Assembly (NCBI RefSeq): GCF_965363235.1
Contig: NC_134851.1
Coordinates: 36,174,321-36,238,320, forward strand
Direction of reading: 5' to 3'
Length of the DNA stretch: 64,000 bases
From: Mytilus galloprovincialis
Taxonomy: Eukaryota > Mollusca > Bivalvia > Mytilida > Mytilidae
The translations under genes were made by a program, and so were the position numbers. The notes beneath the pieces were generated by a model. It saw only the letters and a program-made list of their open reading frames with translations, did no database searches and was not told the origin of the DNA. How positions within the stretch are numbered: the stretch's first letter is position 1; every line of letters begins with the position of its first letter. This document shows positions 3,698 to 62,662 of this stretch, one piece after another.

Positions 3698-4085
3698 TTC
3701 TGTATCTGAATTTTGGTGAACCTTAGATTTGCAGCTATATATGTCGCGGGCAGGATTCCATTATGATTGGATCCATATCACTGTGACCTGATTTTAGTTT
3801 ATGACCACCCCCTATTATATGATGTACATGCATACTTAGTTTGGAAAACCTATGTTCAACGATTCAAGAGATATCGACCGGACACAAACCAGAATCAAAC
3901 AATGTTTAAAAACTTGACGACTCAAATGTCAATTTCAATGTCAAAATGAACTGGTTTAATTTATGAAAAACCACGTGCCATCCCATAATATATCTCTGAA
4001 CTAAGTGTGTTTAACATCAGTTCTATAGTTCAAAGCAATGCATCTTATATTTGAAATCTTTGGTTTTTGGATGAACTGTATGTCT

Positions 4086-4225
4086 AAAATTGAGACTGGA
4101 AATGGGGAATGTGTCAAAGAGACAACAACCCGACAATAGAGCAGACAACAGCAGAAGGTCACCAACAGGTCTTCAATGCAGCGAGAAATTGCCGCACCCG
4201 GAGGAGTCCTTCAACTGGCCCCTAT
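4086..4225 (-). mobile_element. Truncated Naiad-type 3' tail
   Basis: This copy matches the 3' terminus of the Penelope-like element at 58941-59165, including GGGGAATGTGTCAAAGAGAC and the GGAGGCGTCCTTCAGCTGGC-like end (here GGAGGAGTCC). The retroelement 3' end lies at the low coordinate, so the insertion is in minus orientation. An open frame of 65 codons across it (4090-4287) is spurious. Confidence 0.7.
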
Positions 4226-10139: not shown

Positions 10140-10960
10140 TATTACATCGGAGTTTACACCAGTAGTGATATTTACAAAGTGATAATGAATTTGTTTAGTT
10201 ACATAAACGTCGTGCTAGTGCCATGAAGAAGGCAATTATGTTGATATCACACCTTTTCTATTCTTTTTTCTAATAAATGTGTTCTTTTAAAGAACGATTC
10301 AAAATGTAATCGATCATATCAGATACAAAAAAGGACATATTTTACTTACATCTAGAAATGGACAGCGAGGGCCGATTTAACAGAAAACTTTACGAAAACA
10401 GGGATGATATCAACTTTCGAATTTTAAACTTCCCATACTTATGAAGCAACTTCAAACAGTGCTTGCATACAGGTTATATATCTCCCAATTGCTATTACAT
10501 TCCAAGGCTTGTATTTTCTATCAATATTTCTATCACAGGTGCAACACATGTAGAACATGATCTGCTTACACTTTTGGTACACTATTCTGAATAGAACCAG
10601 CATAATCTGATAATCTATAGGTGCATTGTTATGTCCAATCCAAATTGTGACATTTTGAGTGATTGTAGATTAAACGTTTCGTCATTCCATGAGATTTTCA
10701 TCCAACTGAAGCACGATGTCTCTCTCCATATGAATCTCCCCGTTTTTTCAACCTGGATTTCAATATCGAAGGCTACTGTTGCATTGGAATTTAAGACATG
10801 GCATATCCAAAGTGATAATTCATTTTTTGTTAGATAAACGTGTCGTTGGTGTCATGAGGAAGACAATTATTTTGATATAACACCTTTTTCTGATAAATGT
10901 TTTTTTTTCAAAGTATGATTCAAAATGTGATCGTTCATATCGGATAACAATTTTGTTTTT
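9990..10960. repeat. Imperfect tandem duplication, period about 640 bp
   Basis: Segments 10100-10310 and 10740-10940 align. Both contain CCTGGATTTC(G/A)ATATCGAA, an AAAGTGATAAT motif and GAAG(G/A)CAATTATGTTGATAT-like sequence. The second copy is more diverged. Confidence 0.6.
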
Positions 10961-12523: not shown

Positions 12524-12867
12524 AAATAAAATTTAGAATTGAAGAGGGTCATGTGTCAAAGAGAGAACAAACAGACCAAAGAGAAGAACACAGCCGAAGG
12601 ACACCAATGGGTCTTCGAATTCAACGTAGCCCCAAAAAACTTTTCGTCTGTAAAGAAAGTACACAATGAATCATTTTATTTTTCGCAATACAAATAAAGC
12701 ATTTTACAGATCCTATATTCAACCAACGATACAAGCTTATGAGAAATATAGTGCTACAGACATAACAAAATCTAATTTTGATAAGATGGGTCAATATCTT
12801 TAATTGTTTTAACATAGGCGGTAATTGTAACGATTTTTCCGGTAGCTCAGTCCATATCGTAAACTTG
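12524..12867. repeat. 344-bp direct repeat, left copy
   Basis: Nearly identical to 13341-13683. It includes a variant of the Naiad-tail motif (GGGTCATGTGTCAAAGAGAG) near its start and ends in CCATATCGTAAACTTG. It could be a pseudo-LTR of a Penelope-type insertion or a simple tandem duplication. Confidence 0.75.
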
Positions 12868-13340
12868 TATTCTGTATTCTGTGCTACAATTGTTGATTAC
12901 GATTAAGGTATAATGAAGCTGGAAGTTATTTGGTGTTACCAAGTAAAGAGTGTTATAATGTATTTTATAAATTAACTGTTGATAAACATGTATTTGACAA
13001 AATATTTGGATTTCCCCCCCTCAAATGCCCTTTAACATCGTGCTTTATTAAGGCTTTTCAACTTCTTTGTTTACAAAACACGCGTCGCGTCTGACACAAA
13101 TACAAAATTTCCATCCTGGTAGCTATGATGAGCATACAACCTTAATCAAGTAATACATTGTATACTATAACATTACTGAAGCTAATAGTATCAGTAAGTA
13201 AATTATTCCAAAGAGTACTGCAATATATCGTCAGTCTTTTTACCATTACAAGATTACTCCAGTTAATTACAAAACAATAAATTGTTAAATACAATGGAAG
13301 AATTGTTCTTGATTTGTTATTGGCGAACCAATAAATCGGT
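12868..13340. mobile_element. Spacer element, inverted copy at 26137-26614
   Basis: This 473-bp segment between the direct repeats recurs almost identically in inverted orientation at 26137-26614 without the flanking repeats. No coding frame is convincing on either copy. Confidence 0.7.
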
Positions 13341-13683
13341 AAATAAAATTAAGAATTGAAGAGGGTCATGTGTCAAAGAGAGAACAAACAGACCGAAGAG
13401 AAGAACACAGCCGAAGGACACCAATGAGTCTTCGAATTCAACGCAGCCCTAAAAAACTTTTCGTCTGTAAAGAAAGTACACAATGAATCATTTTATTTTT
13501 CGCAATACAAATAAAGCATTTTACAGATCCTATATTCAACCAACGATACAAGCTTATGAGAAATATAGTGCTACAGATATAACAAAATCTAATTTTGATA
13601 AGATGGGTCAATATTTTTAATTGTTTGACATAGGCGGTAATTGCAACGATTTTTCCGGTAGCTCAGTCCATATCGTAAACTTG
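13341..13683. repeat. 344-bp direct repeat, right copy
   Basis: Second copy of 12524-12867, differing at only a handful of positions. After it the sequence becomes unique (GGATATGCATGATAGCTC). Confidence 0.75.
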
Positions 13684-22608: not shown

Positions 22609-24381
22609 TATATGTTACAGTAAATAGGTGAAATTAGGAATTACACGTAATTACTAAACATTTCAGTAAATACCTGTAATCACTAGCCAATTTAGTAATT
22701 ACATGTATTTACTAGTTGATTCAGTGATTACTTGTATTTACTGATTATTTTTGTCATTTTTACAGATATTTACTGACTTGATTTTTTTTTGCTTTAAAAT
22801 TAAAGACATAATTCAAGATACCAAACAAGAAAGTAAAGGGATAGGGATTTTTAGGGCTTATACTTAAGGATTAAGGAATATAAGGCACATCAAAAGTGCA
22901 TACTCTTTAGAGCTAATTGTGAATCGAAACTGGAAAATTGTGGTTTAATACGTTTTGAAACTCCCTAAAAATCAGCATGCAAGACATTGATATCAATCCA
23001 AAATTTAAACAGACATTTGTGGGAAGTTTGAAGTGATATTGATTTGAAAATTGGTAAAAAGTTTTATCCAGACAAGTTATAGATGAAGTTGGAATTTTAT
23101 TTCAGGCTGATGATTTTGTGCAGAGTTGTGGTCCTTGAACTTTGAAAATTAACTCCAAACTTACCCCTTTTGCTTTTAAAAATATGATTTCAGAATTGGT
23201 ATTAAGTTGACAAATTACAGATCAAGTTCAAATTTTGTTAATATCTGATGATTTTCTACATAACTTATATATTCATTTTGTGGCATATATGACCCAAAAA
23301 AAAGCAATTTAAAGCAAACACTGATATACATTATAACTCAAAAATATAAATCATGATTGATGAATAAATTGAGTTAATTAAATGAGGTGAGCGATTGAGG
23401 ATCTTGAGAGCCTATTGTTTATATTATATTTTATAATTTTGCTTTTCAAGTTGCCCAATGACAAAAGTTAAATTCCTTTTTCTAAATAGTTCATCAGTTT
23501 TCCTAGTTTCTCGTTTTTATATGGGGAGGGGGGCTGTTCTTTTTCCCATTTGAATGGTTTTACACTAGTATTTTTGGGAGGCTTTTATAGCTTGCTGTTC
23601 GGTGTGAGTCAAGGCTAAGTATTGAAGGCCATACCTTGACATACAATGGTTTACTTTAAAAAAAAAAATGTTACTTGAATTAAGAGTTTTCTCATTTGCA
23701 TTCATACCACATCTTCCTATATCTATTAACTATAAAATTGAGAAAGGAAATGAGGAATGTGTCAAAGCGACAACAATGACTTCTTCTGTCGGACATTTGT
23801 GATGATTCTAATCTTTTTGTGGATTGAATAAGTCACCATAAAATTTCACCGCTTTTGTTGACATTATTTCCATTTTTGTCGAGCATGCATGGGACTTTTA
23901 TCACAAAAACGCGAGACATAGCGAACCAACCTATGTTCCGTCATCAGCGGCTAAATTTTGTTTCTCAGCATATTTAACAAAATAGAACAAGTGAGATTGC
24001 CTGCTAAAAGTGAATTCTAATTTCATTATAATTAATGACTAAGTCTTAACAACACAAAAATCATATTTAATTTGCTATATATTTCGTAGCTTATGCACCA
24101 ATAACAAAAAAGATTATTTTAGGTTGATCACTTTTGAAGAGTATTCACTGATCTTCTAGTAGGTATTACCATAACTTTTGATCAGCTGACCATAGTACAA
24201 CATTGTTTCAATAGTTAGTAAATAGGTGTAAAAAATCATTTAAAAATTAGTAATTACTGGTAATAACTGGGCAGTTTTAGGAATTACTTGTATTTACTAA
24301 GTGCATCGGGAATTACATGTAATTCCTAAATTTTAGTAATTACATGTAATTCCTAATTTCACCTATTTACTGTAACATATA
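22609..24381. mobile_element. Nested 1.77-kb TIR element
   Basis: The left end TATATGTTACAGTAAATAGG and the right end are exact inverses, and complementarity continues for about 36 bp. Subterminal repeats of GTAATTACATGTATTTACT type occur at both ends (22660-22745 and 24250-24360). The outer flanks are TATA, so a TA or TATA duplication cannot be told apart from the TIR. It lies wholly within the 4.6-kb element, so it inserted later or was captured. Confidence 0.75.
23545..23735 (+). repeat. TTCGGTGTGAGTC repeat inside the nested TIR element
   Basis: Contains TGGTTTTACACTAGTATTTT and TTCGGTGTGAGTCAAGGCTA, then CACATCTTCCTATATCTA. Directly after it a short Naiad-tail motif appears (AAATGAGGAATGTGTCAAAG, about 23733-23775). 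This is third-level nesting. Confidence 0.65.
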
Positions 24382-29100: not shown

Positions 29101-29310
29101 AAAACCTAAAGGATTTTTTTATCCCAGGAATAGATTACCTTAGCCGTATTTGGCACACATTTGTAGAATTTTGGGTCCTCAATGATCTCCAATTTTGTAC
29201 TTGTTTGACTTGATTTTTATGTTGATCTGAGCGTCACTGATGAGTCTTAAGTAGACGAAACACGCGTCTGGCGTACTAAATGATAATCCTGGTACCTTTG
29301 ATAACTTTTT
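29100..29310. repeat. GATGAGTC/TAGACGAAACACG repeat
   Basis: Contains GGTCCTCAATGATCTCC, TTGTACTTGTTTGACT, GAGCGTCACTGATGAGTC, TAGACGAAACACGCGTCTGG and CCTGGTACCTTTGATAAC, the most complete copy of the family here. The reverse frame 29179-29364 is spurious. Confidence 0.7.
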
Positions 29311-31289: not shown

Positions 31290-31510
31290 TAAAATGGAGA
31301 AAGGAAATGGGGAATGTGTCCAAGCGACAACAACCCGACCTTAGAGCAGACAACAGCCGAAGGCCACTAATGGGTCTTCAGTGTAGCGAGAAACTCCCGC
31401 ACCCAGAGGCGTCCTTCAGCTAGCCCCTTAAAATATGTATACAAGTTAAGTGATAATGGACGTCATACTTAACTCCGAATTATACACAAGAAACTAAAAT
31501 TAAAAAAAAT
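31290..31510 (-). mobile_element. Truncated Naiad-type 3' tail
   Basis: Matches 58945-59165 from GGAAATGGGGAATGTGTC through CCGCACCCAGAGGCGTCC and on to ACACAAGAAACTAAAATTAA, so it covers over 200 bases of the element's 3' end. Minus orientation, 5'-truncated. Confidence 0.75.
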
Positions 31511-42869: not shown

Positions 42870-43330
42870 TATTGGACTCTCGCTGTAGAAAACCGATAAA
42901 AAATCTTCATTGTTTTTATCACTTTCAATCGGAAATTCGTGAGCAGCGATAGACTATATCAAAAACAAAATTTCATTGATGTACAAAATGAACATCAGAA
43001 GCCTCTGACCTTTGTTAGTTTTGTATTATTTGTATCATTTTTAATTTTAGTATCTTGTGTACAATATTGAGTTAAGTATGGCGTTCATTATCACTGAACT
43101 AGTATATATATTTGTTGAGGGGCCAGCTCAAGGACGACTCCGGGTGCAGGAATTTCTCGCTGTATTGAAGGCCAGTTGATGGCCTTCTGTTGTTGTCTGT
43201 TCTATGGTCGGCTTGTTGTCTCTTTGCCACATTCCCCATTTCCATTCTCAATTTTATCTGTAGCGTTTTTCAAAACAGAGTAAAATTTGATCAATGTTTG
43301 ACAACAAAAATATTCATTTAATGATCAAAT
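42870..43330. repeat. Four-copy block, copy 4, split by a retroelement tail
   Basis: TTCGTGAGCAGCGATAGAC and ATGTACAAAATGAACATCAG match copies 1-3. The block then stops, and resumes at 43259 with TAGCGTTTTTC. Copies 1-3 act as empty sites for the inserted piece. Confidence 0.65.
42998..43258 (+). mobile_element. Truncated Naiad-type 3' tail with empty-site proof
   Basis: Matches 58945-59185 in reverse: AAGCCTCTGACCTTTGTTAG to CCATTTCCATTCTCAATTTTAT. It interrupts copy 4 of the four-copy block, so it is a real insertion with a defined 5' truncation point and a 3' end at about 43258. Confidence 0.75.
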
Positions 43331-43689
43331 CTACTAGCATGGAATGGCATTAAACTGATTGGTACATAGTTTAAAAGAGACGCTGTTTCAAATTATTATC
43401 TGTCAAAATTACTTAGAATTACAAAAATCTACAACATTCAATGACAAATAAAAAGAAAAATAACAGCAGAGAAGAAGAAGATTTCAATCAGAGTGAACTT
43501 TAAAATGATTATGAACACCTGACCTTTTTTTAATTTTTTTTTAATCGAACTTGTTAAGCTAGGAAGTCACTAAATGTGATTTATTGAGTGAAAGGACGTT
43601 TTTGATATGTATGAAATTGAAATTAAAAACTGTGCATGTAGTACTTTCGTTTGACTTTGAAGGTGCGCTAAACGAGAGGAAATTAAACT

Positions 43690-45240
43690 GGGTACTTTTT
43701 TAGAATGGGTCGAAACAATCAGGTATCTGATAAAATGTCGCATTCATAAGTTAAAAACTGTGTGAATGATCGACCAAAGTCCGTTTTGGAAGACAAAGAG
43801 GCTGTGAAATATCTTTCCTCTCTTCACGATAAAGTTGTGTTTTTACCTGATGACAAAGCTTCTAATAATATTTTCTTTGTATAAAATTTTATTCTTAAGA
43901 GTGTTTCAAAAGAATTAGGAATAAATGAGCACACAGGTAATCCAACATTTTGGAAGGAGGAGATTTTGGAGATTCGGAAGTCCTTCTTGCTTGGCTTCAA
44001 TGAACAATTAATAGAACAATACACCGGAGAACTTACCTGGTTTGTATTGTAAACCTTAGTTTCACAAAGTTCCGTATGCACCAATGTACATGGCCTGCTT
44101 TTCCGCATGTCTGACTTAAAATTGTGGTTTAGTTTGACCAAAAAAAGGTCTTCAGGAATACTGTAAAGCACTTTATTCGCAAAGTTGTATGAACCATGTA
44201 TGGATGACAACAAACGGAAATAACTTCTGAACTCTTTTTAATATCGATCTTTGACTGTAATTTATTCTATTATTTTTTTTTTATTTTTCCACCGTCGATA
44301 CCAACATTCTGCTCTGTTTTGAAGACCGTACTCTGAATTATAATGGTTTAATTTACTATTACAAATGTGAATTAGATTTACGAGTTTTCTTATTGGCACT
44401 TATACCAAATCTTTTTATATCTATTCCCAATGTGAAGTTGAAGAATCGTCTATAAAAAAAATATCCACAACGATTTTCATCATAAGAATGGTAGCGTACG
44501 CTATTGATTTATTATTTTGGGATACCATACGACATATTATGTTAATAGGGAACAAAACGATGCTACACAGAGGAACAAGTAATCAGTATGCTGAAGTTTC
44601 TTATTGGCAACTTATTTGTTGAATTTGGAGGTAGACTTTTTCAACAAATTGAGGGCATTCAAAAGGGAACCAACTATGCGCCTCTCTATCTCGACCTTTT
44701 CTAACTTTCTATGAGTCGGCGTTACATCAGAAAACAAAAAGATCGAAGAATACAGAACATTTAATTTCACATTCAGATTTGTTGATGATGTTCTTTTCAT
44801 TGACAATCCAAACTTTTCTAATTCGGTTCCAAAAGTATTTCATCCACCAGAACTTGAAATTAAAAGAATAGCAGACACAGCCTCCCCTGTCTCATTGTTA
44901 GACTTATACTACGAAATTGTCATTCGCAGTGATCCCTAAACCAGAATTTATGCCAAACATGACGATTTTAATTTTGAAATTATCAATGGTGTAATAACCT
45001 GGTTTGTAGCTACCTAAACCCCTCATTTGTATGACGGTTTTGTACAGTTCCATTTCTATTATATTAACAGCAGTCTGTGAACAAAACACACAATATAATG
45101 TAAAATCTATGATAACAGAATAATGGCGTTTCTATACATTTTTATTTTAAAGTTGTGGAAGATGTTTAAGACCCTTATTTCCCTAGGGTATACCAGTCCA
45201 GTAACCAGTGGTCCAGAGCTGATAATATATAGCATTGATA
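43690..45240 (+). pseudogene. Decayed Penelope-like RT
   Basis: Fragments in several frames follow RT order. VVFLPDDKASNNIFFV (43830-43881) is the conserved D-K-x-x-N-N block upstream of RT, followed by a stop (TAA 43882-43884) where relatives have Cys. GNPTFWKEEIL and LQEYCKALYSQSC come next. After an interruption, EFGGRLFQQIEGIQKGTNYA (about 44620-44680) is RT motif B. PPELEIKRIADTA and HDDFNFEII (44845-44990) lie between motif C and the thumb. The YxDD block is blurred. Many stops and frameshifts are present, so it is dead. The minus-strand frames 43824-44213, 44612-44806 and 44904-45089 are antisense shadows. Confidence 0.75.
44285..44430 (+). repeat. Diverged TTCGGTGTGAGCC-family copy within the RT remnant
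   Basis: GAAGACCGTACTCTGAATTATAATGG and TTCTTATTGGCACTTATACC resemble the family 3' half. It separates the finger and motif B parts of the RT remnant and therefore inserted later. Confidence 0.5.
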
Positions 45241-48126: not shown

Positions 48127-49246
48127 CTGCAAGAAAAATCCAAAAGTGATTAAATTTTATATTTCATAGTTTACAAACATATGAACATGGTTAGGAACCT
48201 AAGTAAACGAACAAACCAATTTGAATACTTATTTGTATGAAGCAGGGAAAGTTCTTTACTGATTCAGTTGGTGATCAGGAATCTCAAATAACGATCGCCA
48301 TGCCTCTTTTCATATGTTTATTTATAACCGTATCCAGGTCTGTCCGGCATTAACACTTAATTGATGAGAGTTGGTTGACCGTTAGTAATTGTCTAAATCA
48401 TAATAATGAATTAACTGTTTGGTTTCAAATGACGAGGCTCTGCACTTATACATCCCGTCATTGTGTTATTGTGTTATGGTGAATCTTGTCTTTCATTTTT
48501 ACATTGATGCTTTGTCTATACGCCTTTTTATGTCTGTTTTAAAATATTTGTTTGTTTTTTTATAGTAGCCAAGATTATGACTGCTGTACCCAAATTTTTA
48601 ACATTCTTGCCTATTATGTCTCTTTGTTTTGTTTAATGATCGTTGTCAATGTTAATGATTTTTATGCGACTGTCTTACGAGTGGCAGGTTTAGCTGGCTA
48701 TACTACAAGGTTTAATACATCATTCTCTACATAAACAAATGCCTATGACAAATAAACTGATCATAGATACCAGGATTAAAAAGGAAAAGTTTTCTTTAAG
48801 GCACAACATGGCATAGAATATCAACTGTCATAAAACACCAAAAAAGGTAATGCTAAACAAATTAGTTATTTCATAATGTGTGTGCTCCAAATAGTCATCA
48901 ACAGGTCTGGAACACTACCTTATATGGAAATGCATGAATTAGCACATGTAATTTTTTATTTACGTGTGACGCAATTTGTTTTTACCTGGGTTTTTGATCA
49001 ACCACCTAAATGAGTAACAATGCATGATGGACTACTACGTGTTTACAATCAACAAAACGATCAACCAAACAAGCGTGTTATTTACTGAAATACAACACAT
49101 TGTTTCATGCAATGCGGGATTAACAATATCACTCAGTTTTTCATTTTTTGTATAAACGAGAATGAGAATGGAAATAGGGAATGTGTCAAAAAGACATCAA
49201 CCCGACCATAGAAAAAACAACAGCAGAAGGTTACCAACCGTATTTT

Positions 49247-49284: not shown

Positions 49285-50197
49285 TCCAGGTCTGTCCGGC
49301 ATTAACACTTAATTGATGAGAGTTGGTTGACCGTTATTAATTGTCTAAATCATAATAATGAATTAACTGTTTGGTTTCAAATGACGAGGCTCTGCACTTA
49401 TACATCCCGTCATTGTGTTATTGTGTTATGGTGAATCTTGTCTTTCATTTTTACGTTGATGCTTTGTCTATACGCCTTTTTATGTCTGTTTTAAAATATT
49501 TGTTTGTTTTTTTATAGTAGCCAAGATTATGACTGCTGTACCCTAATTTTTAACATTCTTGCCTATTATGTCTCTTTGTTTTGTTTAATGATCGTTGTCA
49601 ATGTTAATGATTTTTATGCGACTATCTTATGAGTGGCAGGTTTAGCTGGCTATACTACAAGGTTTAATACATCATTCTCTACATAAACAAATGCCTATGA
49701 CAAATAAACTGATCATAGATACCAGGATTAAAAAGGAAAAGTTTTCTTTAAGGCACAACATGGCATAGAATATCAACTGTCATAAAACACCAAAAAAGGT
49801 AATGCTAAACAAATTAGTTATTTCATAATGTGTGTGCTCCAAATAGTCATCAACAGGTCTGGAACACTACCTTATATGGAAATGCATGAATTAGCACATG
49901 TAATTTTTTATTTACGTGTGACGCAATTTGTTTTTACCTGTGTTTTTGATCAACCACCTAAATGAGTAACAATGCATGATGGACTACTACGTGTTTACAA
50001 TCAACAAAACGATCAACCAAACAAGCGTGTTATTTACTGAAATACAACACATTGTTTCATGCAATGCGGGATTAACAATATCACTCAGTTTTTCATTTTT
50101 TGTATAAACGAGAAGAGAATGGAAATAGGGAATGTGTCAAAAAGACATCAACCCGACCATAGAAAAAACAACAGCAGAAGGTTACCAACCGTATTTT

Positions 50198-50235: not shown

Positions 50236-52079
50236 TCCAGGTCTGTCCGGCATTAACACTTAATTGATGAGAGTTGGTTGACCGTTATTAATTGTCTAAA
50301 TCATAATAATGAATTAACTGTTTGGTTTCAAATGACGAGGCTCTGCACTTATACATCCCGTCATTGTGTTATTGTGTTATGGTGAATCTTGTCTTTCATT
50401 TTTACGTTGATGCTTTGTCTATACGCCTTTTTATGTCTGTTTTAAAATATTTGTTTGTTTTTTTATAGTAGCCAAGATTATGACTGCTGTACCCTAATTT
50501 TTAACATTCTTGCCTATTATGTCTCTTTGTTTTGTTTAATGATCGTTGTCAATGTTAATGATTTTTATGCGACTATCTTATGAGTGGCAGATTTAGCTGG
50601 CTATACTACAAGGTTTAATACATCATTCTCTACATAAACAAATGCCTATGACAAATAAACTGATCATAGATACCAGGATTAAAAAGGAAAAGTTTTCTTT
50701 AAGGCACAACATGGCATAGAATATCAACTGTCATAAAACACCAAAAAAGGTAATGCTAAACAAATTAGTTATTTCATAATGTGTGTGCTCCAAATAGTCA
50801 TCAACAGGTCTGGAACACTACCTTATATGGAAATGCATGAATTAGCACATGTAATTTTTTATTTACGTGTGACGCAATTTGTTTTTACCTGGGTTTTTGA
50901 TCAACCACCTAAATGAGTAACAATGCATGATGGACTACTACGTGTTTACAATCAACAAAACGATCAACCAAACAAGCGTGTTATTTACTGAAATACAACA
51001 CATTGTTTCATGCAATGCGGGATTAACAATATCGCTCAGTTTTTCATTTTTTGTATAAATGAGAATGAGAATGGAAATAGGGAATGTGTCAAAACGACAT
51101 CAACCCGACCATAGAAAAAACAACAGCAGAAGGTTACCAACAGGTCTTTAATGTAGCAAAAAATTTCCACATTTATAGTTCGTGATATAAAGTATTCGTT
51201 CCATGCTCAGATTAACAAAACCTTGTTCTATGCGAAAAAAACAAATTGAATTACCTGATGTACGATAATTAATATGTTTGATAATGACACGAAGATTTCA
51301 GGTATTCATCCACCAGACAGCAGCGAAACAACAGTGAAAAATACAATTACCTATCAGACACACTTACTAGTGTAAAGTTAGCCGTCGATAATAGCCGGTG
51401 CTAATATGCATGGGGTTCAGAAACTTTAGTATAGCTGGTAGCTTTAGATAGTTAAAGAAAAATTTGGATCCTATGGATTTTGTGTTCGTTAAAAGGCGAA
51501 GACTAAGAGTTTGGTAAAGATCTGATGAGATTACTAAACTTTCGAAGATCACAAAATTTATTTTATGAAATTGTACCTTCTTTGATGATTAAAAATTAAT
51601 TTAAATCAAGGAAAATAATGTGTTCATTTCTTTGTCTTAAAAACAAGGAATATTTATCAATAGGGGCCAATTATAGCCGATTATACGGTATGGGCAACCA
51701 TACCACATCTCCTTATTTTTGTATACAAACATCTTTCAGAATGTGCGATTTTTAATTATGAAATATATTTACTAACGTCTGTAGAACACTAAGTAATATT
51801 TTAATTTTGAGAATTTAAAAGGTACAGAACATGCACAAAACCTATATAATCCATCATATTTCATCGAAACTACACAAGACATTTTTAAATTCTTGTCTGA
51901 CAGTGTTAACAAAATCTATAAGTATAATTTATTGTTGACATCTTTCTGTATTTGGGACTTGCAAACTGGTCACTTTGTTCTGAAGGTACTGAAGCAGCAG
52001 CTGTAGTTTTATTTTGTTTTTCGTCTTTGCAAAGTTCGAATTTTTGTTTTACACATGTTATTTTTTTGGTCCTTTTTTT

Positions 52080-58568: not shown

Positions 58569-59165
58569 GACCTAAATATTTTTGCGATAAAGCACCATCC
58601 TATGTCTTCTGATAAATCCTTCATTCTAAAATTGAACAACGTATGTAAACAGTAAATCTATTCTATATTTTTGTGTTTTCCCGTACATTATTCATGTATA
58701 TAGTTTATTCGTTTACCTACACAAAAGAGTAAGTTGGATCAATTTCACAAAGTATTTGATTTTCCAAAGTATGCTTGTATGCCTTTTCAAAACACCGTCT
58801 AGGAGTGTCTAACCTCATATTTGAAAATCTGATTCATTGTTTGTTTAAATTTTCGAGATCTTTGATGTTCTTTATTCAAATTATTTTCAGATTTTTAGAC
58901 TTAGTGCTATTAACATGATTAAGGTGGTATGTGAATAAAATTGAGAATGGAAATGGGGAATGTGTCAAAGAGACAACAACCCGCCCAAATAAAAAACAAC
59001 AGCAGAGGGTCACCAACAGGTCTTCAATGTAGCGAGAAATTCCCGCACCCGGAGGCGTCCTTCAGCTGGCCCCTAAACAAATATATACTAGTCCAGTGAT
59101 AATGAACGCCATACTAATTTCCAAATTGTACACAAGAAACTAAAATTAAAATAATACAAGACTAA

Positions 59166-59456
59166 CAAAGTCCAGAGGCTCCTGACTTGGGACAGGCGCA
59201 AAAATGCGGCGGGGTTAAACATGTTTGTGATATCTCAACCCTCCCCCTATACCTCTAACCAATGTAGTAAAGTAAACGCATAACAATATGCACATTAAAA
59301 TTCAGTTCAAGAGAAATCCGAGTCTGATGTCAGAAGATGTAACCAAAGAAAATAAACAAAATGACAATAATACATAAATAACAACATACTACTAGCAGTT
59401 AACTGACATGCCAGCTCCAGACTTCAATTAAACTAACTGAAAGATTATGATTTCAT
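59166..59456 (-). other. Element 3' UTR between the SECIS and the tail
   Basis: Contains GGAGCCTCTGGACTTTG-type sequence, the start of which is shared with the truncated copy at 42998. No other structure is noted. Confidence 0.5.
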
Positions 59457-59519
59457 CATATGAACATCAGGCACAATCCTTCCCGTTAGGGGTTTAGTAT
59501 CATACCATCATTACATATA
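59457..59519 (-). promoter_or_regulatory. SECIS element (form 2), selenocysteine insertion signal
   Basis: Read on the minus strand. Helix I: TATATG (59519-59514) pairs with CATATG (59462-59457), across an internal loop TA/GTT. Quartet: AUGAU (59511-59507) opposes UGAU (59469-59466), giving the tandem G.A pairs. Helix II: GGTATGAT pairs with ATTGTGCC over 8 bp including wobbles, then one mismatch and CT/AG. ATGA is separated by 12 bases from an unpaired AAA (59495-59493). A short CCC/GGG helix with a five-base loop caps it, the form-2 shape. Every rule of eukaryotic SECIS is met. It lies about 55 bases past the TAA of the RT frame, the normal 3'-UTR place. Confidence 0.8.
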
Positions 59520-59572
59520 TGAGAAGAACATAACCCGTGTCATGCCAACAACTGTTTTTAGAATAAATGTGT

Positions 59573-62500
59573 TTAGTTCCGATGCAAAGACCTTATCAGT
59601 GACTCAATATTAACGCCAAAATATGCAATCTTTAATGACTTGACAACAGTATCGTAATTATATCCCTTCTTAATAAGTCTATTCAAAGGTTTTGTAAGTT
59701 TCTGAGGTGAATACTGACACATTTGTGCTTTATAAAGAATATTACGATAAAAAATTGGATGTGAAATACCTGAACGTATTAGAAGTCTGCATGTTGAGCT
59801 ATATTTACGAATGATGTCTTTATACCGATGATAAAATTTAGTAAATGTTTTGACTAGTTTGTGATATCGAAAACCCTGGTGTAATAATTTTTCAGTAATA
59901 CATAAATTTCTCTCGTTAAAATCTAAAACATTGTTACATACACGAGCGAATCGTACAAGTTGAGATATATAAACACCGTAAGATGGTGACAAGGGAACGT
60001 CACCATCTAAAAACGGATAATTAACGATAGGAAATGAAAAATCATCCCTTTTATCCTAAATTTTAGTATTCAGCTTTCCATTAGTGATATAGATATCAAG
60101 ATCGAGAAAAGGGCAGTGGTCTGTGTTAGTATTAGCTTTATTTAAAGTAAGTAAGGATAAATTTCATTAATATAAATACTGAAGTCGTCATTATTGAGAG
60201 CCAAAATATCATCCAAATATCTAAAAGTATTATTAAATTTGTTTATCAGATGTTGTTTCGATGGGTCTTTGCTTATTTTTGTCATAAATTGTAACTCATA
60301 ACATTACAAAAACAGGTCCGCAATAAGTGGTGCACAGTTAGTCCCCATTGGAATTCCGATAATCTAACGATATACGGAATCCCCAAAGCGAACAAAAATG
60401 TTATCTAGTAAAAATTCAAGGGCATATATAGTATCAAAGCATGTCCAATTAACATAGTTTTTTTTGTTTATTGCTACTAAAAAATGACCTAAAAGAGTTT
60501 GAACATATATATTCACATTCTGATTTTTTGAATGCCTATTTAATTAGGTGTGTGAATTTTTTCTTAATGAGAATGTGAGGCAGTGTGGTATACAGGGTAG
60601 AAAAATCAAAACTCTGAACAGATTCAAAATCACCAATATAAGCATGCAATTTATCAAGTACTTCCAACGAGTTCTTGACACTCCAAAAGTAATTTATTCC
60701 ACTATTTTCGAAGGCCTTATTTGAACAATTTATTATCAGGTTTTTAATTGTACCAAGTTTGCTGGTAAGAAGAATAGACAATTTAGTAGTTGAACAATGG
60801 CTTGAAGACGAAATAAATCTATATTTGTAAGGGGTTTTGTGTAGCTTCGGAAGCCAATACATAGTTGGGACTTTCATTGTATTTGGCTCTGCTTGTAAAG
60901 CGGTGCCTAAAAGTTTATGTTTGTTACAGATTTCGTTTTCTGAAAATGGAGTAAGTCGGAATGTTGGTGAATTGGTGATTTCCTTTTTCAGAACCTCAAT
61001 GTAAAATTTACGTCAAACAATAATAATATTATTAGCAGCTTTATCTGCCGGGACAAAAACAAATTCCTTGGCTAGTTCTTTTAGTTTATGTTTGATACGA
61101 GAAATAGGTTTATTGTTGTTATTGTTTATAGTAAAATGTTCTTTAAAATGTTGAATACGTATATCAACTATCTTCATTACTGAATTTAAAAAAGAGTCCA
61201 AAGATTTTTTGTCAGCTTTTTCCCGTTTTATCCATTTCATACAGTAAGTATGGAGTGAGTCGTGGATGATATTACGACACTCATTCCAATTAATAATTGA
61301 CGGGGGACGATATTTAGGTCCTTTACTGAGGAATGATTTTAACTCTCGGTCTTGAACGATGTTAAGATCTCCTGTTATAACATGGGAAATGGGTCCATAA
61401 ATATATTCGGAATTACTGCAATTACATGAAGTAGGTGTATTTTCACTGATATTAACATCTTTACACAATTGACTATAGTTAAACACAAATTTCCGGGTAG
61501 ATTTCTTGTACATATAACAAATAAGAGGTAGCTTAGTATTGTCAAAATATCCAGGAATTTGTTCTTTAACAGAATGGTCGTTAAATATACCGGCAATATT
61601 TACAAAATCAAAGCCTTTATTGACATACTTAATTTTAATAAAATGTTTTTTATGATCTTCAGGGCGATCAATTTTGGGAAATAATTTAGAATAACAATAT
61701 GCCATAATAATTTGAACAATTTCATACTTAGGACTGCTATATGAAATTGTGTTGCAATCCTCCAAAATTTTATTTAACTTATTAACCGGAAACAAACAGA
61801 GTTTTGTTAACAGATAATGTCTGCCGTTGTTTTTTGAAATAGAAATTAGGTCCGAAATATTGGTATGATTGGACCGAATTTTTCTTTGATTGCGATTTGT
61901 TCTACGACCGTGAGAACGTTTTTTACGAACAGTTTTAGAAACTATATCCAAAATGTTAACGGAATTGGTTCTAGATATATTACCAATTCCCATGATATTA
62001 TCATTTAGACCGAGAGGGTAAACTGTCTGTATTTTTTTAATCCAATTTAATTCAATTCTTTTCCGTGATCGTACAAACTTTGAATGCGATTCACCAGGCT
62101 GCTTATTTACTACTTCTAAAGGTTGAACTGCTAAATATTTAAAAGGATGGTTGTGCTTCTTAAGGTGTTGGTAAATGATACTTTTGAATTTATTTGGTCT
62201 TTTAAAACGATACAGATGTTCTTGAGTGCGTTTAGATAAATATCGTCCAGTTTCTCCTACGTACTGAATACCACACCCCGGTTTGTTTCATGTGAGTAAA
62301 TAAATAATACTGTTTGTTCTTCAAGTTATATCAGTTTCAAAATTTAAAGAAAATGTGCGACCATTAAACGTGGACCTTACCGTATTGTTGGTGGAAAGAC
62401 GGGGACATGTAAGTCATTTTTTGGCATGACACTTATCGATAGAAGGGTAACCACGATTTTTATTGTTAAAAATGTTAGCGATGGTAGTATTTTTAGATAA

Positions 62501-62662
62501 CCGATTTTGAAGATTGAGACGTGTGGATACCCTTTGAACAAGTTTAGTATTTATTAATTTTATGTGAGTATAGTTTACAATTAAAATGATAGAATGTGTT
62601 CACCTGTAGTATACTTTATGATATATACAAAAATATGACAAGAATGATAGGTCAATGAGCAT
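59573..62662 (-). pseudogene. GIY-YIG / CxC / RT polyprotein of a Naiad-like element
   Basis: The frame starts at ATG 62662 and stays in one register for 708 codons to 60539, broken only by TGA. Order: N-terminal zinc segment KCHAKKxLTCP (62435-62400); GIY-YIG core GCGIQYVGETGRYLSKRTQEH (near 62275-62215) with ELNWIKKIQ...GLND later; CxC linker SCNCSN (61429-61412); DKAANN block (61045-61028); fingers MYWLPKLHKTPYKYRFI; motif A FDFSTLYTTLPH; motif B GIPMGTNCAPLIADLFL; motif C FRYLDDIL; thumb LSPSYGVYISQLVRFARVC. In-frame TGA: 62600-62602, 62414-62416, 62321-62323, 62288-62290, 61013-61015. The last four sit at expected Cys positions and are probably Sec. Lesions: TAG 60536 (at a likely Trp), +1 in the A-run near 60460, TAG 60364, TAA 60304, a frameshift near 60150, TAG 60056. 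Dead copy. Confidence 0.85.
61412..61429 (-). other. CxC linker motif of the Naiad-like protein
   Basis: TGT-AAT-TGC encodes Cys-Asn-Cys between the endonuclease and RT. This short CxC domain is the family hallmark of permuted Penelope-like elements. Confidence 0.75.

Follow-up and report, generated by a model that had tools for sequence, protein, structure and literature searches.

The window analysed here, a 64-kb stretch of mussel DNA, contains on its minus strand a 5'-truncated copy of a Naiad-like Penelope element, with the remnant of one long ORF followed by a SECIS-like hairpin (Table 1). The main blastn match of this copy with 39 other genomic copies has 96-99% identity. In the window copy the start codon is missing, as is almost everything of codons 1-6; the copy is frameshifted near codons 705 and 808 and carries four further nonsense codons (TAG681, TAG738, TAA758 and TAG842) that are not common to the family, whose residues at these places are Trp681, Gln738, Tyr758 and Tyr842. 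A preliminary description of this DNA had read these four codons correctly. It had also called the element a fossil, which suits the window copy but not the family, other copies of which are intact but for their TGAs. The five in-frame TGAs that it listed all exist on the minus strand, but only four are inside the element; the fifth (62602-62600) is upstream of 62561, where similarity to the other copies starts, and belongs to flanking DNA. The 40 copies compared, the window's included, are the best matches to the window DNA, and this set, like the list of 74 matches and the 14 sister-subfamily copies presented below, is biased toward close or intact copies. The longest units of the family elsewhere in the genome measure about 3.9 kb. 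The 20 copies for which long flanks were taken begin at varying 5' points, while 19 of them share one 3' end within a few bases, L019 being the sole copy that ends earlier on the 3' side.

Table 1. Positions of the element, its parts and related sequences in the window.
Feature	Position	Strand	Basis or remark
Naiad-like Penelope element, 5'-truncated copy	58933..62561	-	blastn against 39 other genomic copies
Remnant of the 1,002-codon ORF (codons 7-1002 and terminal TAA)	59573..62560	-	
Terminal TAA of the ORF	59575-59573	-	
TGA, site 55, first Cys of a CxxC pair	62414..62416	-	TGA in 40/40 copies; Cys in 28/28 relatives
TGA, site 86	62321..62323	-	TGA in 39/40 copies, one gap; Cys in 28/28 relatives
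TGA, site 97, first Cys of the pair just before GIxY, putative CCHH motif of the endonuclease	62288..62290	-	TGA in 40/40 copies; Cys in 28/28 relatives
TGA, site 522, near the start of the RT domain	61013..61015	-	TGA in 39/40 copies, one TAA; Cys in 28/28 relatives
GIY-YIG endonuclease domain, residues ~88-196	61991..62317	-	mapped by hand from a relative
CxC linker motif, C385 and C387	61418..61426	-	alignment A1
Telomerase-like reverse transcriptase region, broken in the window copy	59801..61066	-	tblastn; fold of P0010 matches TERT
SECIS element, 51 bases past the terminal TAA	59457..59521	-	Rfam RF00031, 32.0 bits, gathering score 35
3' tail of the element	58933..59456	-	
Second Naiad-like fragment, older, heavily broken, all-Cys-like (resembles L048)	43670-44987	+	
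Small scrap of Naiad-like RT	10319-10540	+	
Hammerhead type I ribozyme-like match	29231-29274	+	30.3 bits (gathering score 34), E 0.0018
Recurring stretches of the element's 3' end	4085-4224, 12525-12616, 13339-13433, 23732-23776, 31290-31508, 42995-43257, 49163-49238, 50115-50189, 51058-51171		

Naiads are Penelope-like elements with an N-terminal GIY-YIG endonuclease, a CxC linker, a CCHH motif, a telomerase-like reverse transcriptase (RT), an insertion-in-fingers domain, no hammerhead ribozyme and a bias toward insertion in microsatellites. A Pfam search with protein P0001 returned no GIY-YIG or RT domain, its only match being ATE_N, below the cut-off of that family, and the domains were therefore assigned by fold and alignment. 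The GIY-YIG domain is N-terminal to the RT and a telomerase-like RT occupies the C-terminal part, both as in Naiads. Between them lies the CxC, of which C385 is invariant and C387 nearly invariant in the 29 sequences aligned. Positions 97, 102, 121, 138 and 144 are also invariant in alignment A1, and the first Cys is a TGA in this family; we propose, as our own assignment, that they make up the CCHH motif of the endonuclease. A pseudo-LTR or tandem arrangement was found too: another copy's 3' end stands upstream of 8 of the 20 copies taken with 1.5-kb flanks (L002, L007, L011, L013, L014, L015, L017 and L018). No hammerhead ribozyme was detected at E up to 0.1 in L003 and L041-L044, and the flanks of the 20 copies showed no clear microsatellite bias by eye. 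By its domain layout, its tandem partial copies and the absence of a hammerhead match, the family is classified as a Naiad-type Penelope-like element.

The four TGAs inside the element are kept across the family almost without exception (Table 1), and any other stop in the family frame is present in only one or two of the 40 copies. One of these, a nonsense change at codon 902, is common to two copies and counts against a selenocysteine (Sec) reading. All 1,002 codons are free of indels in 13 of the 40 copies; in seven of them the four TGAs are the only stops, and the other six have one or two more. The start codon is ATG in 31 copies, ATT in one (L002) and unaligned in eight, L002 being one of the seven otherwise open copies despite its ATT. 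The preliminary description had proposed that the four TGAs replace Cys of relatives, and this was borne out in alignment A1, which joins the family to 28 full-length relatives chosen among the 120 protein matches listed. In A1 the TGA sites are four of eight invariant Cys columns, and the probability that four codons picked at random from the 1,002 would all lie in these eight columns is 1.7e-9. In the wider list, whenever a match extends to site 55, 86 or 97, its residue there is Cys. At site 522 the exceptions among the matches listed are eight with Trp and one with Ser (P0102, in a poorly aligned neighbourhood). Cys also occupies this site in the two outside relatives nearest to the family (80 and 76% identity), which counts against the Sec reading. 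When residues 1-215 were used as a protein query, two relatives were found, and reading them showed Cys at all three N-terminal sites in each.

The hairpin announced by the preliminary description after the terminal TAA is there, at a spacing of 51 bases and not about 55, and with a score below the Rfam gathering score. The Rfam model SECIS_1 aligns with it end to end at 59521-59457, with an E-value of 0.0013 in a search of 4.2 kb against 4,227 families and of 0.02 when the whole window was searched; no further SECIS was found in the window at E up to 0.1. The match reaches 32.3 bits in L003 and 30.9 bits in three of the four copies scanned from a sister subfamily (B, the window's own being A), and none was reported in the fourth, which has AAG for AAA. 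All SECIS scores (30.9-32.3) are thus under the gathering score of 35, which, like the missing match in the fourth B copy, weighs against the Sec reading. The 65-nt stretch is complete in 14/14 B copies and fully aligned in 33 of the 40 A copies, one of these 33 with a 1-base insertion, and among the 33 the AUGA and AAA motifs are kept in 33/33 and the 3' UGA in 32/33. L024 keeps the SECIS core with an 11-base gap beside it, and the six remaining A copies end before or inside the stretch or are without it. By eye, the SECIS of A and B differ at five of the 65 positions, none of them in AUGA, AAA or UGAU. The free-energy z-scores of the hairpin, another point against it, are modest for 81 nt of the window copy (-1.74; an equally stable fold in 12 of 200 shuffles) and weak for 148 nt of another copy (-0.43). 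We did not rely on a rule-based SECIS scanner of our own, which marked three additional places in the window and failed to detect subfamily B.

Selection on the frame was evaluated by a simple column count, not tree-based, with the expected ratio of nonsynonymous (N) to synonymous (S) changes taken from the pooled substitution spectrum. Changes common to at least two copies comprise 55 N, 87 S and one stop, against an expected N/S of 3.12 (ratio 0.20), and private changes comprise 349 N, 169 S and 19 stops (ratio 0.66). Broken down by segment, the shared changes give a ratio of 0.24 upstream of codon 55 (7 changes, p 0.067), 0.09 in codons 55 to 97 (5 changes), 0.22 in codons 97 to 522, and 0.20 after codon 522 (26 N and 43 S; expected N/S 3.07; p 3.6e-11). 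The purifying selection downstream of the last TGA therefore shows that the lineage which spread made use of the region past the four TGAs as protein.

Subfamily B repeats this pattern. With P0003 as the query (76% identical, residues 408-1002), 74 matches were listed, the top-scoring ones among many candidates and some of them copies from subfamily A itself. In its matched part each contains a single TGA, and neither TAA nor TAG occurs there. We read 14 B copies, about 92% identical to L003 and picked largely for long open frames. TGA was found at site 55 in 12/12 covered copies and in 14/14 at each of sites 86, 97 and 522, and 10 of the 14 copies have no other stop or indel in the covered part; L052 and L054 have one TAG each, and L044 and L055 have indels. 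Majority differences between A and B, over the compared codons of four B copies, number 140 S and 61 N, none at the TGAs. An apparent excess of conservation in the N-terminal three-TGA stretch between A and B (4 differences) proved to be an artefact of skipped codons; the windowed A-B identity with the 14 B copies is 0.94-0.96 in that stretch and 0.88-0.96 in the rest of the ORF. The preliminary description had suggested looking for TGAs that are kept while synonymous sites vary, and this holds across copies and in both subfamilies. It had also stated that sister copies with TGT or TGC and no conserved hairpin would speak against ancestral Sec codons; at the four sites, neither TGT nor TGC occurs in any of the 40 window-subfamily or 14 sister-subfamily copies. 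The only case observed of Cys codons with no accompanying SECIS match is L048, a distant all-Cys element from this genome; its complete sequence shows TGT at each of the four sites and gave no Rfam SECIS match at E up to 1. The all-Cys relative P0010, used as a query in this genome, found 46 of 47 matches listed without stops and one with a TGA. Because all-Cys elements without stops exist in the same genome, a genome-wide reassignment of UGA looks unlikely.

Since the four TGAs are kept at conserved Cys sites in two subfamilies, with a SECIS-like hairpin, otherwise open frames in several copies and downstream purifying selection, we consider it very probable that the window holds a decayed member of a Naiad-type Penelope-like family, and that the one protein which this family encodes is a putative selenoprotein with four selenocysteines. 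That the TGAs are ancestral Sec codons and not products of decay, as the preliminary description proposed, is supported by their retention in the copies and in both subfamilies. The host Sec machinery (tRNA-Sec, SBP2, EFsec) would decode each UGA as Sec, aided by the 3' SECIS, and a full-length endonuclease-RT would be produced. Its GIY-YIG domain would nick DNA, and the element RNA would be copied by target-primed reverse transcription. Sec at sites 55, 86 and 97 probably replaces metal-binding Cys of the endonuclease region. As a consequence, transposition would depend on the selenium supply of the host.

Proteins from other sources bear on how the UGAs are read. In a tree of the RT sequences of A, B and unnamed relatives, A and B are sisters (support 100/100) inside a clade of 18 rows (100/99). 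None of the 16 outside rows of this clade reaches site 97; gene calls cut at N-terminal TGAs would fit these missing N-termini, and truncation is an equally simple explanation. Trp occupies site 522 in 8 of the 118 listed matches that cover it, and this is what could be expected if UGA were read without selenium, through insertion of Trp or Cys by a near-cognate tRNA, through a suppressor tRNA or through RNA editing. The unaligned parts of these eight relatives are Trp-rich (22/649 versus 62/7930, p 1.9e-8), so that they were probably called with TGA as Trp, which makes the residue a gene-caller artefact. Moreover, a SECIS lies beside the TGAs in both subfamilies, whereas none was found in the one all-Cys element scanned, and we regard decoding without selenium as very unlikely. 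At site 385 the same eight relatives have Trp in four, Cys in two, and the last two do not reach it. P0008, P0024, P0025 and P0027 show Trp at both otherwise invariant Cys sites, 385 and 522. If Trp stands for a miscalled TGA, elements of other species probably have TGA at 522 and some of them also at 385, and these four proteins are candidate selenoprotein elements with a different set of sites.

Another explanation is that the TGAs are inherited nonsense of a dead master element whose copies were mobilised in trans by all-Cys proteins, the hairpin being a chance structure. Stop-free all-Cys elements of the same kind do exist in this genome, and the hairpin's score falls slightly short of the Rfam gathering score. 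Against this, each of the four kept stops is a TGA that lies in an invariant Cys column, an unlikely coincidence as calculated above, and the purifying selection downstream (ratio 0.20-0.22 after site 97, together with the excess of S changes between A and B) would be unexpected for a passenger mobilised in trans; in our opinion this explanation has hardly any standing. The truncation, the frameshifts and the four further nonsense codons of the window copy would suit a retroelement in ordinary decay, its TGAs and hairpin having arisen by chance, but chance decay of the TGAs is ruled out by their conservation across the 40 copies and the 14 of the sister subfamily, several of them otherwise open, and this reading keeps practically no probability.

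Multi-selenocysteine Naiads have reportedly been described in clams and spiders by Craig, Yushenova, Rodriguez and Arkhipova in 2021. They reportedly resemble the mussel family in the N-terminal GIY-YIG, the CxC linker, the telomerase-like RT and several in-frame TGAs taken as Sec; the mussel family differs in its host and in having two subfamilies with the same four putative Sec sites. It would thus be a well-supported new member of the Sec-coding Naiads rather than a new kind of element. To our knowledge, mobile elements that require selenocysteine are very rare. The titles and abstract openings covered by our literature search contained none on selenoprotein retrotransposons. All-Cys Naiad-like elements of the same genome share the domain order, as far as aligned, and the conserved Cys columns; L048 differs from the window family in having TGT at the four sites, no in-frame TGA and no SECIS match. 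Canonical Penelope/Poseidon elements, in which a C-terminal endonuclease and hammerhead motifs are typical, are similar in their GIY-YIG and telomerase-like RT and in their tandem partial copies, while in the window family the endonuclease is N-terminal and the copies searched (L003, L041-L044) are without a hammerhead. Selenoprotein P, a cellular selenium carrier, is also comparable, in that several UGAs of one mRNA are decoded as Sec. Selenoprotein P has two SECIS elements in human and mouse (PMC5133445), whereas the window family is a mobile element with one SECIS match per element.

A single genome thus offers a natural comparison, with near-identical four-Sec copies beside stop-free all-Cys relatives, and this makes testable both the benefit of Sec to an endonuclease-RT and the control of transposition by selenium. 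More tentatively, and as a reading that we hold less likely than not, one could imagine rival versions of a retrotransposon in one genome, a selenium-dependent four-Sec version and an all-Cys version, each with several open-frame copies. The Sec sites would shift between lineages (55, 86, 97 and 522 here; apparently 385 and 522 in the relatives called with Trp), and Sec use would be gained and lost, gating transposition by host selenium. For annotation there is also a warning: such proteins may be truncated at their UGAs by gene callers or, under an unsuitable genetic code, be given Trp there.

The search for relatives brought additional observations. No relative was found in IMG/VR. Prokaryote genome contigs gave three matches, two of them titled with Bathymodiolus mussels, and none reaches the four TGA sites credibly. 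The records L046 and L047, titled as gill-symbiont bacteria of Bathymodiolus, contain Naiad-like RT pieces, which are most likely mussel host DNA within symbiont assemblies. In the relatives P0011, P0012 and P0019, of about 1,300 residues, a ubiquitin hydrolase domain (PF00443) comes after the Naiad-like region in A1, which would look like the capture of a deubiquitinase by a retroelement.

Other parts of the window hold further traces of these elements. No tandem array was found around the hammerhead-like match at 29231-29274. At the position corresponding to site 522, the second Naiad-like fragment carries TAA instead of TGA. Additionally, stretches of the element's 3' end, 45-263 bases long and with 76-93% identity, recur at nine other places in the window (Table 1), and these could be solo 3' ends or short tail-sharing elements mobilisable by the same RT.
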